Shown: piece by piece, positions 41,283 to 45,625 of the stretch
Numbering within the stretch: position 1 is the stretch's first letter
Layout of the letters: every line of letters begins with the position of its first letter
DNA from: Cyanobium sp. T1B-Tous
GTDB lineage: Bacteria > Cyanobacteriota > Cyanobacteriia > PCC-6307 > Cyanobiaceae
Assembly: GCF_024345475.1 (NCBI RefSeq)
Contig: NZ_JAGQBE010000007.1
Span: forward strand, 1 to 63,270
Direction: 5' to 3'
DNA length: 63,270 nucleotides
Notes under the pieces: generated by a model
Databases searched by the model: none
What the model saw: the letters and a program-made list of their open reading frames with translations, nothing else
Told to the model about the DNA's origin: nothing
Translations under genes and position numbers: made by a program

Positions 41283-42652
41283 TCGCCACCCTTGAAGGCG
41301 ACCTGTTCCAAAGCCTTGGCTGGCTGGCCCTTGCCGTGGCCTGCCTCAGCCTGATCCTGGCGGTGGGACGCGCGATCGGCACCCGCCTGCAGCTGCGGCT
41401 CTGGGGCATCCCAGAAGCCCTGCTGGCCGGACTGCTGGGCCTGCTGCTGGCCCCGGGCGGGCCACTGCCGCTGCTGCCGCCCCAGGTGCTGCAGCTGTGG
41501 GCCGATCTGCCCCTGGTGCTGCTCACCCTGGTGTTCGGCTCGCTGTTGCTGGGCAAACCGCTGCCCAAGCTGGAGGGGCTCTGGCGACCGGTCTCCGGGC
41601 AGGTGTCCCTGGCCCTGGTGCTGGCCTTCGGCCAGTACGTGGTGGCCGGCCTGGCGGTGCTGCTGGTGCTGCAGCCCTGGCTGGGGGTGAGCCCGATCAT
41701 GGCCTGCCTGATTGAGGTGGCCTACGAGGGGGGCCACGGCTCAGCCGCGGCCATGGGGCCGAGCTATGCGGCCCTGGGCTTTCCCGGCGGCCAGGCCCTC
41801 GGCCTGGCCATGGCCACCGTGGGGCTGCTCTCCTCCACCCTGGTGGGCGGATTGGTGGTGGTGCTGGCCCGCAAGCGCGGCTGGCTGCTGGCGGATCGGT
41901 GTGCTCCAGCCAGCACCCCTGCCGGCGCCGAAGCGCCCGCACCCTCCCCCCCGGGCCCTGCCCCCGGCGCCGCAACCTGGGCGGTGAATCTGGCCCTGGC
42001 GGGCGTGGCCGTGCTGGTGGGCGTGGGCCTGCTGGCCGCCCTGCGCTGGCTCACGGGGGGGCTGGGTGACGGCGTCGCCCTGGTGGTCGACTCCCTGCCG
42101 GTGTTTCCGCTGGCGATCGTGGGCTCGCTGCTGGTGCGCCTGGTTCTGGAGCGCAGCGGCCAGGCCCACTGGGCCTCCGCTCCGGTGCAGAGCCAGATCG
42201 GCACCCTCTCGGCGGATCTGCTGATCACCGCCGCCACCGCCGGGCTGGATCTGGGCCTGCTGCGGGCCGACTGGCTGCCGCTCACGGTGCTGGCGGTGAG
42301 CGGCCTGGCCTGGAACCTGGGGGTCACCCTGCTGCTGGCCCCCCGGGTTCTGCCGGCGGACTGGTTTGAGCGGGCGGTGATTGAATTCGGCCAGGCCACC
42401 GGTGTGGCAGCCAGCGGCCTGCTGCTGCTGCGCATGGCCGACCCCGACGACCGCAGCGATGCGCTGCCGGCCTTCTCGATCAAACAACTGCTGCTGCAAC
42501 CCTTTCTGGCGGGCGGGGTGATCACCGTGGTGGCGCCCCTGGCGGTGGCGAGCTGGGGCTTACCCCTCTGGACCGCCGCCTGCCTGGCGGTTGTGGTGCT
42601 GGCAGGGAGTGCCGGGCTGCTGCTGGCCCGACTTCAGGCCCCCGCCCCGTAG
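41279..42652 (+). CDS. GltS-like sodium/glutamate symporter
   Basis: 457 residues from a GTG at 41279. About ten to twelve hydrophobic helices are split by a Pro/Ala-rich loop near residue 225. The first half contains IMACLIEVAYEGGHGSAAAMG, the second FGQATGVAASGLLLLRMADP, the two inverted-repeat pore motifs (GGHG and GxATG) of the ESS/GltS family. It is coupled to the peptidase gene, which fits uptake or retention of the peptide's amino acids (inference). Convergent with the aldolase gene, overlapping by 19 nt. Confidence 0.9.
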   Translation: MIATLEGDLFQSLGWLALAVACLSLILAVGRAIGTRLQLRLWGIPEALLAGLLGLLLAPGGPLPLLPPQVLQLWADLPLVLLTLVFGSLLLGKPLPKLEGLWRPVSGQVSLALVLAFGQYVVAGLAVLLVLQPWLGVSPIMACLIEVAYEGGHGSAAAMGPSYAALGFPGGQALGLAMATVGLLSSTLVGGLVVVLARKRGWLLADRCAPASTPAGAEAPAPSPPGPAPGAATWAVNLALAGVAVLVGVGLLAALRWLTGGLGDGVALVVDSLPVFPLAIVGSLLVRLVLERSGQAHWASAPVQSQIGTLSADLLITAATAGLDLGLLRADWLPLTVLAVSGLAWNLGVTLLLAPRVLPADWFERAVIEFGQATGVAASGLLLLRMADPDDRSDALPAFSIKQLLLQPFLAGGVITVVAPLAVASWGLPLWTAACLAVVVLAGSAGLLLARLQAPAP

Positions 42653-43314
42653 AGCAGGGTGCGGAACTGGTGATGAACGGCCGCCATCTGCTCGGGGCTG
42701 AGCAGGGGCGGCTCGCCCAGTTGCAGGGCCTGGAGATACATCTGGGCCAGGGTTTCCACCTCAATCGCAATGCGCAGGGCCTGGTCGAGGCTGGCCCCCA
42801 GGGCCACCTGGCCGTGCTGCCCCAGCAGGCAGGCCCGCCGATCCACCAGGGCCGCCACCGCCAGCGCGGACAGCTCCGCGGTGCCGAAGGTGGCATAGGG
42901 GGCGCAGCGGATGTCATCGCCGCCGGCGACAGCGGTCATGTAGTGGAAGGGGGGGATGGCGCGGCCATGGCAGGCCAGGGCCGTGGCGTGGATGGAATGG
43001 CAGTGGAGCACCGCCCCAATCTCCGGCCGGCCCGCCAGGATGTCCACATGGAGGCGCCACTCCGAGGAGGGACGCCTGGCGCCGTCATCCCGGGAGCCGC
43101 CAGCCAGATCCAAGGCCACCAGATCCTGCGGCTGCATCAGCTCGTAGGGCAGGGAACTGGGGGTGATCAGCAGACCCCCGGGGATCCGCACCGACAGATT
43201 GCCCGAGGTGCCCTGGTTGAGGCCCGAAGCATTCATGCGCCGGGCCACCGTCACCAGCTGTTGACGCAGCTCGGCTTCGGAGCCGGGGGCCAGGACAGGG
43301 GGGACGGCGGGCAA
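42634..43314 (-). CDS. Class II aldolase (FucA/MtnB/Ald2-like)
   Basis: 226 residues. Zinc-dependent aldolase of the adducin fold: catalytic Glu85 in PSSEWRLH, metal-binding His104 and His106 in LHCHSIHATAL and His167 in GQHGQV. Relatives cleave fuculose-, rhamnulose-, methylthioribulose- or deoxyribulose-1-phosphate to dihydroxyacetone phosphate plus an aldehyde. The third gene of a minus-strand cluster after mtnA and a kinase, it is best explained as the aldolase of a methylthioribose / 5-deoxyribose disposal shunt, though the substrate is inferred from context. Confidence 0.85.
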   Translation of the reverse strand: MPAVPPVLAPGSEAELRQQLVTVARRMNASGLNQGTSGNLSVRIPGGLLITPSSLPYELMQPQDLVALDLAGGSRDDGARRPSSEWRLHVDILAGRPEIGAVLHCHSIHATALACHGRAIPPFHYMTAVAGGDDIRCAPYATFGTAELSALAVAALVDRRACLLGQHGQVALGASLDQALRIAIEVETLAQMYLQALQLGEPPLLSPEQMAAVHHQFRTLLYGAGA

Positions 43315-43319
43315 GGGGT

Positions 43320-44471
43320 TCAGCGGCGCAGGGGGAAACCGGAGGGATCCGGCAAGGCGGCCCAGGCGTCGATTTCCAGGGCGTAGGCGGCATGCCGCTG
43401 GATCGCATCATCCATGAACAGGGCGGCCCGAATCGGGGTATCCGGCCCGCGGGAGAAGCCATGCATCGCCACGCCCGCCGTGATGCAGCGCAGGGCCGAC
43501 AGCTGCATGTCGTAGCGCGCCTCGCTCAGCGGGTAATCGCGCACGCCCCGGTTCACCAGCTCCTGGTGCCAGGCCAGCAGCAGGTCGTCATGGCGCCCCA
43601 ATCGCTGCGCCTGGGGCGTACTGCCGCCCACCAAAAACGCGATGTCGATCGCGGCCACACTGCGGCTCGCCCAGGACCAATCGATGATCACCGATTCGGG
43701 ATCCTCCACGGTGTGAGCGAACAGCAGATTGTCGGCGCGGAGGTCGCCATGCACGAGGGTCCAGGGTCGGTCTTCCATGGCTGCATCCACCGCACTGGTC
43801 TGTTCGAGAACGGCGCGGTACAGGTGGCAAACGTCGGGACCAAAACGCACGCCGTAGGTGGCAAAGAAATCCTCAACAATCTCGGCGTTGGGATTGGAGA
43901 ACCAGAACCCATGGTTGGGCAGCCAGTCATGCTGGTGCAACCCCGGATCCATCCAGAATTCAGCGTGGATGGCGGCCATGCGCTGGATCGAAGCCAGCGT
44001 TTCCTGGTAGCTGAGGCCGATCACCTGGTCGCCGGAGCGGAGGTGGGTGAGATCTTCCATCAGCAACCAGGACGGCTCACCGGCATGGGTGGCAAACACG
44101 GCCGGCTGGTGATTGCTGAGCCGGGGGGTGCAATGGGTGTACACCCCGACCTCCCGCCCGAAGGCATTGTTCAGACGGCTGAACGCATTGAAATCCTGAT
44201 CGGATGTTTCACTTTTGAGGATCACGCTGGCAGGGCCAGCACCAGGGGGATCACAGCTCAATTCCAGTCGCCAGGTGGTGGATTGAAATCCCCTGGCTTC
44301 ACCCAGCAGCTTGGCCTCCAAGCTCTTCACCGTGGTTCCGAGAACCTCCCCAATCCAGTCGGGTTCGGGCTGCTTGACCACAGGGTCGGTCATGGGGGCC
44401 TGCATCGGTTCGGTCATGGGGTGATCAAGCGCCTCATCCGATGAGGCCTCGCGGTGGGACTTCCAATCCAT
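43320..44471 (-). CDS. APH/choline-kinase-fold phosphotransferase
   Basis: 383 residues. A protein-kinase-like fold of the aminoglycoside phosphotransferase group: lysine in SVILKSE (86), hinge LLMEDL, catalytic loop LVHGDLRADNLL (His241, Asp243, Asn248) and metal-binding VIIDWSW (Asp264). It is not an orthodox methylthioribose kinase MtnK by length and motif detail, but shares the fold. The position between mtnA and an aldolase suggests that it phosphorylates the sugar that MtnA isomerises. ATG 44471 is chosen; ATG 44417 would drop 18 residues. Confidence 0.8.
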   Translation of the reverse strand: MDWKSHREASSDEALDHPMTEPMQAPMTDPVVKQPEPDWIGEVLGTTVKSLEAKLLGEARGFQSTTWRLELSCDPPGAGPASVILKSETSDQDFNAFSRLNNAFGREVGVYTHCTPRLSNHQPAVFATHAGEPSWLLMEDLTHLRSGDQVIGLSYQETLASIQRMAAIHAEFWMDPGLHQHDWLPNHGFWFSNPNAEIVEDFFATYGVRFGPDVCHLYRAVLEQTSAVDAAMEDRPWTLVHGDLRADNLLFAHTVEDPESVIIDWSWASRSVAAIDIAFLVGGSTPQAQRLGRHDDLLLAWHQELVNRGVRDYPLSEARYDMQLSALRCITAGVAMHGFSRGPDTPIRAALFMDDAIQRHAAYALEIDAWAALPDPSGFPLRR

Positions 44472-44497
44472 GGACGTCAGCGAACACCGCTGCTGCC

Positions 44498-45625
44498 TTA
44501 CGCATCATGGTCATAGAGCTGCCGCAAGCCTGCCTCCGATGCCTGGGCCACCCCCCGCTCGGTGATCAGGGCCGTCACCAGCCGGGCCGGGGTGACATCG
44601 AACGCGGGGTTGAAGCCGGGGCTGCCGTCGGGGCTGAGCTGCACCGTGGCGAGCTGCCCCTCGACGGAGCCGCCGCCCCCGCCGCCCAGCAGCCGCCCCT
44701 GGATGGCCGTCACCTCCTCGGCGCTGCGGGCTTCGATCGGGATCTCGGCCACACCGTCATCGATCGTCCAATCGATCGTGGAGGCCGGCAGGGCCACATA
44801 AAAGGGCACCCCGTTGTCGTGGGCCGCCAGGGCCTTGAGATAGGTGCCGATCTTGTTGCACACATCGCCGCGGCGGGTGGTGCGGTCGGTGCCCACGATC
44901 ACCGCATCCACCTGGCCGTGCTGCATCAGGTGGCCGCCGGCGTTGTCGACGATCACGGTGTGGGGCACACCCTCCTGACCCAGCTCAAAGGCCGTCAGTG
45001 AGGCGCCCTGGTTGCGGGGGCGGGTCTCATCCACCCACACGTGGATGGGAAGCCCGGCGCGGTGGGCCTTGTAAATGGGGGCGAGGGCCGTGCCCCAATC
45101 CACCGTGGCCAACCAGCCGGCATTGCAGTGGGTGAGCACATGGAGCGTGGCGCCGGGCCTGGCCGCCGCCAGCTGCTGGAAGATCGCCAGCCCGTGGTCG
45201 CCGATGGCCTCGCACATGGCGACGTCCTCATCGGCGATCGCCGCAGCCTCCGCCTTGGCCGCCTCGGCCCGCTCAGCCGGCGGCAGCGGCTGCACCTTGG
45301 CCTGCACCCGCTCCAGGGCCCAGCGCAGGTTGATCGCCGTCGGCCGGGTGGCATTGAGTTGCGCAAAGGCCGCCTCCAGGGAGGCGTCACCCGGATCGGC
45401 CTGCAGGGCCAGCATCAGCCCGTAGGCCCCGGTCACGCCGATCAGCGGGGCGCCGCGCACCACCATCGTGCGGATCGCCTCGGCGGCCTGGTCGCAACTG
45501 GCCAGGGTGCGCGTGGCAAAGCGATGGGGCAGCAAGGTCTGATCGATCACCCCGATCGCGTGGGAGCCCGAACGGCCATCCGACTCCAGCCAGATCGTGC
45601 GCCAGGACTTGCCGTCGATGTTCAT
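44498..45625 (-). CDS. mtnA: S-methyl-5-thioribose-1-phosphate isomerase (or DrdI-like paralogue)
   Basis: 375 residues. Converts methylthioribose-1-phosphate to methylthioribulose-1-phosphate; paralogues do the same with 5-deoxyribose-1-phosphate. Key motifs: [16 protein letters not shown] (54-69), catalytic Cys167 in LTHCNAG, NNA-like DNAGG and catalytic Asp247 in [12 protein letters not shown]. It is slightly longer than the usual 350, with a Gly-rich insertion (LLGGGGGGS) near 314. It is the first gene of the cluster; the kinase follows 26 nt later. Divergent from amt. Confidence 0.94.

Follow-up and report, generated by a model that had tools for sequence, protein, structure and literature searches.

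A conserved mtnA–aldolase gene pair in Cyanobium and its relatives, proposed to serve a dihydroxyacetone phosphate shunt, with a kinase gene probably inserted between the two

Introduction

When three closely spaced genes on one strand read like one pathway, do they work as one? This question is raised by a locus of Cyanobium sp. T1B-Tous (family Cyanobiaceae; contig NZ_JAGQBE010000007.1 of assembly GCF_024345475.1). We analysed positions 1 to 63,270 of the forward strand of this contig, and this whole stretch of 63,270 nucleotides (nt) is called the window. It holds genes for the isomerase MtnA, a kinase and a class II aldolase. An initial annotation had read the trio as a shunt that disposes of methylthioribose or 5-deoxyribose, with the kinase as a non-standard substitute for MtnK. 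We consider a different division of labor likely: mtnA and the aldolase gene form an operon for the known MtnP-type dihydroxyacetone phosphate (DHAP) shunt, and the kinase gene is a wandering arrival of the EcKL type that takes no step in the pathway.

Two by-products of S-adenosylmethionine (SAM) are at issue. 5′-Deoxyadenosine is an inhibitor of radical SAM enzymes, and reduced sulfur is tied up in methylthioadenosine, so a cell must be able to dispose of both. In the route proposed here, MtnP would phosphorolyse methylthioadenosine and 5′-deoxyadenosine to the sugar 1-phosphate (step 1), MtnA would isomerise this to the ribulose 1-phosphate (step 2), and the aldolase would split the latter into DHAP and methylthioacetaldehyde or acetaldehyde (step 3). 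MtnA would also feed canonical methionine (Met) salvage through an MtnB–MtnC fusion and an MtnD encoded elsewhere, and this sharing would place the aldolase at a branch point, where it would most plausibly draw off 5-deoxyribose phosphate and any surplus of methylthioribose phosphate. An EcKL-type phosphotransferase would then have landed in the operon in this lineage. The enzyme specificities and the flux in this scheme are predictions.

Results

Layout of the locus

The three genes, with their best-fitting families, are:

44498–45625, minus strand: mtnA, S-methyl-5-thioribose-1-phosphate isomerase, 375 amino acids (aa), TIGR00512
43320–44471, minus strand: EcKL/APH-superfamily phosphotransferase (the kinase), 383 aa, PF02958
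42634–43314, minus strand: FucA-like class II aldolase, for which a DrdA/Ald2-like role is proposed, 226 aa, TTG start, PF00596

The open reading frames as called confirm the gaps first noted, 26 nt between mtnA and the kinase gene and 5 nt between the kinase and aldolase genes. Catalytic residues also stand where they had been placed: Cys167 and Asp247 of MtnA, and Glu85, His104, His106 and His167 of the aldolase. The kinase had been described as catalytically complete, and its Lys86, Glu107, His241-Gly-Asp243, Asn248 and Asp264 are indeed invariant in an alignment of 28 sequences (A2). Its start is doubtful, because about 27 N-terminal residues are missing in most homologues of a second alignment (A1) and residues 1–30 are modelled with a predicted local distance difference test score (pLDDT) below 50. 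The true start may lie further inward, and the gap to mtnA would then be wider than 26 nt.

Conservation of the mtnA–aldolase pair

Linkage and genome content can be read directly from related genomes. We surveyed 151 genomes of the family and 16 of the genus; absence from an incomplete genome is weak evidence. Aldolase matches below 50 bits were taken for other class II aldolases and excluded (78 genomes had a match of some kind, and in 22 of them every match was below this limit). G093 and G109 were scored as having mtnA on the strength of partial matches, and two weak extra matches (G016, G068) were excluded. The gene finder missed the aldolase gene or mtnA in a few loci.

A strong aldolase match occurs in 56 of the 151 family genomes and mtnA in 96, with both in 53. 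Thus 53 of the 56 aldolase genomes have mtnA (Fisher p 1.8e-10, relatedness ignored). The two genes share a contig and strand in 40 of the 56 and lie within 230 nt of each other in 22, and these tight pairs, read off our table, span 10 genera. Within the genus, mtnA is followed by the aldolase gene with no kinase match between them in 12 of 16 genomes. The pair of mtnA and FucA-like aldolase is a conserved unit. This part of the first reading, the association of MtnA with a class II aldolase, is borne out by both linkage and co-occurrence, and co-transcription of the two genes would fit it.

Other genes also interrupt the pair. DUF1643-like, oxidoreductase, HtpX-like protease and methyltransferase genes (neighbour names come from a reading of translations, with no family search) lie between mtnA and the aldolase gene in other genomes. 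Inserts at this junction therefore recur, and the kinase gene is one of several. In one genus genome (G006) a stretch of 7.3 kb that includes a transposase-like gene separates the two. Transposase- or recombinase-like genes split mtnA from the aldolase gene in this genome and in G133, so the junction appears to be rearrangement-prone. Some aldolase loci among the family genomes are of low GC content (32–41%), which along with small size points to Prochlorococcus-like genomes.

Distribution of the kinase gene

The joint conservation that the trio should show if all three genes worked together fails at the kinase, which is mostly found at other loci. It lies between mtnA and the aldolase gene in two of the 16 genus genomes, that of the window and a near relative (G003). 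No kinase match was found in five of the 16, among them G001 and G009, both 99% complete and both retaining the mtnA–aldolase pair. In G013 a contig edge cuts off the mtnA locus, and the kinase gene is on another contig. Across the family a kinase match occurs in 10 of 151 genomes, and in the nine others it is not near mtnA.

The loci where the kinase gene does occur are varied. In four genomes (G007, G008, G014, G015) it is flanked by an ftsH-like gene and a clpP-like gene. An aroQ-like gene is nearby in G076, as are cytochrome and ferredoxin genes in G010 and G013. Only one of 32 named kinase loci, that of Cyanobium sp. FACHB-13342, has mtnA or the aldolase gene in its flanks, which were covered up to 6 kb or less at contig ends. 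The gene finder missed the kinase gene in several loci, and these contexts were redone from tblastn positions. In the window the kinase gene has a G+C content at third codon positions (GC3) of 0.779. The 60 called genes average 0.854 (sd 0.041), and three of them are lower than the kinase gene. Its rarity at the mtnA–aldolase junction, its varied loci elsewhere and its low-end GC3 together mark the kinase gene as a wandering, lineage-specific neighbour. It is probably a lineage-specific insertion between the two genes, an event deduced from these distributions, and very probably a bystander to the pathway.

Some further kinase loci stand out. G038 has a kinase remnant with stop codons, and G002 has kinase pieces on two contigs. 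A metagenome-assembled genome record titled Bifidobacterium breve (CALPNT020000081.1) carries a cyanobacterial-type kinase gene and a psbA-like gene, so its label is probably wrong.

Could the kinase act in the shunt?

The kinase might still phosphorylate methylthioribose or 5-deoxyribose in place of MtnK, making the three genes one shunt, for example for 5-deoxyribose that comes from other cyanobacteria or from an internal phosphatase. Its position, with short gaps on both sides, speaks for this, and so do weak resemblances to 5-methylthioribose (MTR) kinase. Against Escherichia coli S88 MtnK, blastp finds a 45-residue stretch (E 0.009) and hhalign a 58-column match (probability 8.9, E 0.0037), while phmmer finds no match. 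A profile search of PDB sequences reaches MTR kinase at E 0.0092, with eight others ranking above it.

Family models point elsewhere. The kinase scores 61.6 bits against EcKL (PF02958, cut-off 22) and 30.2 bits against APH (cut-off 23.2), all 28 sequences of A2 match PF02958 at E 0.001 or better, and the MtnK model TIGR01767 is absent from the kinase's four model matches at E 0.1. The protein is of the EcKL/APH type. The motifs HGDLHSGS and DPEF of E. coli MtnK are replaced by HGDLRADN and DWSW.

We also modelled the kinase from 28 sequences (pLDDT 85.6), replacing a poor model from 11 sequences (pLDDT 65.6). MTR kinase structures are among the best matches to the modelled fold (Z 20.1, root-mean-square deviation 4.1, 307 residues), but choline kinase (Z 19.9) and homoserine kinase (Z 19.6) tie with them. 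The predicted fold is of the general APH/choline-kinase type, which does not tell the substrate. PDB matches of kinase residues 21–81 to CFA/I fimbrial subunit chains (best E 4.3e-7) are taken as chance. An identity as MtnK was rejected on family models, motifs and genomic context.

What the shunt needs upstream of MtnA is supplied by another gene. The genome encodes MtnP on a different contig (C79; TIGR01694, 319.5 bits, cut-off 274.85), and MtnP is over cut-off in 137 of the 151 family genomes, that of the window included. A kinase is not needed, because MtnP gives the sugar 1-phosphate directly. Neither MtnN, the nucleosidase that would release free methylthioribose or 5-deoxyribose, nor the standard kinase MtnK was found in any of the 16 genus genomes at E 0.001; a phosphatase route to the free sugar was not searched for. 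Such a route bears on the kinase. Synechococcus elongatus MtnP acts on 5′-deoxyadenosine, and this organism turns 5-deoxyribose 1-phosphate into the free sugar, which it makes and excretes (PMC8102628). This conversion leaves a loophole for a kinase that acts in the shunt. With MtnP bypassing the kinase step, no MtnN found, and the arrangement seen in two genus genomes and none of the nine other kinase-bearing family genomes, we consider such a role very unlikely. The claim that the kinase stands in for MtnK is thus not supported, and the kinase drops out of the proposed shunt.

MtnA

The window MtnA scores 420.6 bits against TIGR00512 (cut-off 279) and is the sole IF-2B family match in its genome. 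It is 59.8% identical to MtnA of the E. coli S88 mtnK–mtnA–aldolase cluster. Pairwise scores separate two types: 451 bits against this E. coli MtnA, and 217–249 bits against three second-type MtnAs that adjoin MtnB in family members, two of the three being matched stretches, not whole genes. In a tree of MtnA most inner nodes have low support, and E. coli and second-type sequences fall inside the picocyanobacterial set. We take this odd placement as long-branch noise and rely on the scores instead.

The MtnP–MtnA side of the pathway is also visible in gene order. In at least 21 genomes mtnP lies head-to-head with mtnA at a distance of 193–744 nt, and in 13 of them the aldolase gene is elsewhere. 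The neighbours were picked out by eye, which makes 21 a minimum. From these adjacencies and those of mtnA with the aldolase gene, MtnP–MtnA and MtnA–aldolase are each recurrent neighbours.

Which substrate does the aldolase split?

The aldolase matches PF00596 (181.8 bits). It also matches 29 NCBIfam models but falls short of the cut-off for all 25 that were listed, FucA among them. It reaches 201.8 bits against the FucA equivalog TIGR01086 (cut-off 400.25) and 220.9 bits against the broader PRK08087 model (cut-off 264). The aldolase of the E. coli S88 cluster, which is annotated as L-fuculose-phosphate aldolase, is likewise below the TIGR01086 cut-off (317.6 bits), yet above that of PRK08087 (365.6 bits). 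Glu85, His104, His106, His167, Tyr125 and Ser84 are constant in 34 of 34 aligned picocyanobacterial aldolases (the window's own included; G087 entered twice). Work on FucA points to Tyr125 as important for catalysis.

One alternative is that the enzyme is a true fuculose-phosphate aldolase, or acts on another sugar phosphate, and that its linkage to mtnA reflects something besides the shunt. Among solved structures, those of E. coli FucA come nearest (190.9 bits), ahead of 6btd (144 bits), which we take to be DrdA of Bacillus thuringiensis, and sequence identity is 45.8% to E. coli FucA versus 42.0% to E. coli S88 Ald2. These two E. coli enzymes are 58.2% identical to each other and pair in the aldolase tree (support 95), so the tree does not indicate the nearer relative of the picocyanobacterial enzymes. 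Given that the aldolase is about equally far from FucA and Ald2, its substrate has to be judged from context. Here the low FucA equivalog score counts against a fuculose enzyme, though the E. coli S88 aldolase also misses that cut-off, and so does the presence of mtnA in nearly all genomes that carry the aldolase. We regard the alternative as unlikely and propose a FucA-like class II aldolase with a DrdA/Ald2-like role.

Its superfamily includes MtnB, which raises the second possibility that the aldolase is another methylthioribulose-phosphate dehydratase, replacing MtnB within Met salvage. This could explain the 23 family genomes that have mtnA and the aldolase without MtnB over cut-off. It sits poorly with the score against the MtnB equivalog TIGR03328 (70 bits, cut-off 137.05), and with Tyr125, since the window genome's own MtnB has Ala at both the Tyr125 and Ser84 positions. 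Moreover, 30 genomes, the window's included, have both aldolase and MtnB. The probability of such a substitution is, in our view, very small, and the aldolase of a DHAP shunt remains the favored role.

Methionine salvage in the same genome

None of mtnB, mtnC and mtnD was seen within the window, in agreement with the initial annotation. This does not extend to the whole genome. A 477-aa MtnB–MtnC fusion is encoded on contig C84 (4246–5679 of locus L082; TIGR03328 196.2 bits and TIGR01691 226.8 bits, both over cut-off), and an ARD/MtnD match lies on C58 (102.6 bits). A shunt operating without full Met salvage is therefore not what this genome encodes.

How is MtnA provided for salvage? Second-type MtnA adjoins MtnB in G068, G075 and G102, and in G068 it lies between an fpg-like gene and mtnB–mtnC. 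In the window genome the fpg-like gene is followed directly by mtnB–mtnC, with no isomerase gene at the Met-salvage locus. This empty slot suggests that the Met-salvage isomerase was replaced by the aldolase-linked MtnA. From a salvage locus without its own isomerase and the pattern of MtnA scores, the window MtnA is of the aldolase-linked type and probably supplies the DHAP shunt as well as Met salvage.

With MtnB counted over cut-off, mtnA, aldolase and MtnB occur together in the 30 genomes above, mtnA and aldolase in 23, aldolase alone in 3, mtnA alone in 9, MtnB alone in 4, and none of the three in 48. The nine genomes with mtnA but neither a strong aldolase match nor MtnB are G058, G069, G071, G090, G103, G121, G132, G134 and G150; six of these have mtnP beside mtnA.

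Discussion

This kind of pathway is already known. A shunt of MtnP, MtnA and Ald2 was shown genetically in Rhodopseudomonas palustris (PMC5893883), and the route is established also in Rhodospirillum rubrum (PMC10986504). The system proposed here is alike in using a phosphorylase, MtnA and a class II aldolase but no kinase, with genes that may be split between loci. It differs in that mtnA lies with the aldolase gene and mtnP elsewhere, Met-salvage genes are also present, and an unrelated kinase gene stands between. In the drdK–drdI–drdA cluster of B. thuringiensis, which serves 5-deoxyribose disposal (PMC6079011), isomerase and FucA-like aldolase are clustered as here, whereas the kinase described here has no MtnK model match and is not a conserved member of the cluster. 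The E. coli S88 cluster shares the order isomerase then aldolase, but its kinase is MtnK.

This group already has one published instance. In Synechococcus sp. WH7805 an isomerase gene is clustered with drdA and none lies in the Met-salvage cluster (PMC6079011), the same arrangement as proposed here, with MtnA shared between routes. Our literature search found no paper joining the DHAP shunt with cyanobacteria or DrdA with picocyanobacteria, although PMC6079011 nonetheless names WH7805. The same paper describes Arabidopsis DEP1, an aldolase–phosphatase fusion comparable to the MtnB–MtnC protein of the window genome.

Several observations weigh against a shunt operon with a bystander kinase. Of the 53 genomes that have both genes, 13 carry mtnA and the aldolase gene on separate contigs or strands, and among the 40 same-strand genomes five have them 7–117 kb apart. 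A further 34 of the 151 genomes have mtnA and MtnB without a strong aldolase match, five of which carry the second-type mtnA of about 49% identity (G019, G068, G075, G102, G142). Both genomes with the kinase gene in the operon keep it intact, catalytic residues included. The C-terminal Tyr of both E. coli aldolases falls at position 220, where the picocyanobacterial enzymes carry Leu, Ile, Met or Ala; a Tyr at 222 is constant in the picocyanobacterial set, and the alignment near position 220 has a gap. The slightly higher identity to FucA than to Ald2 belongs here too. Finally, the methylthioadenosine phosphorylase of Prochlorococcus has been given a role in deoxyribonucleotide recycling (PMC11698098).

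Has the aldolase gone further and replaced canonical Met salvage in many picocyanobacteria? We find this plausible, with the balance slightly against it. Of the 23 family genomes that have MtnA and the aldolase while lacking an MtnB over cut-off (G093 among them with an mtnA fragment only), eight reach 90% completeness or more. These include five single-contig genomes at 99% (G049, G072, G089, G114, G135), all five with MtnP. If such a replacement is real, methylthioadenosine would end as DHAP and methylthioacetaldehyde, a possible source of methanethiol. Methylthioribose 1-phosphate, which has been proposed to lead nowhere in Prochlorococcus apart from one clade (PMC10654061), would then be no dead end, at least in lineages with all three genes.

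The aldolase distribution bears on that proposal and on a 2021 study of selected cyanobacteria, which found no Ald2 homologue in its strains (PMC8102628). Its presence in 56 of 151 family genomes makes an outlet for SAM by-products testable in this family. The kinase carries a warning of its own: an operon-like trio should not be read as a pathway without a conservation check.

A last observation concerns the neighbourhood of the pair. A zinc-alcohol-dehydrogenase-like gene lies on the opposite strand between mtnA and the aldolase gene in G061 and G138, and one gene from mtnA in G076. Its product could be a reductase for the aldehyde product.

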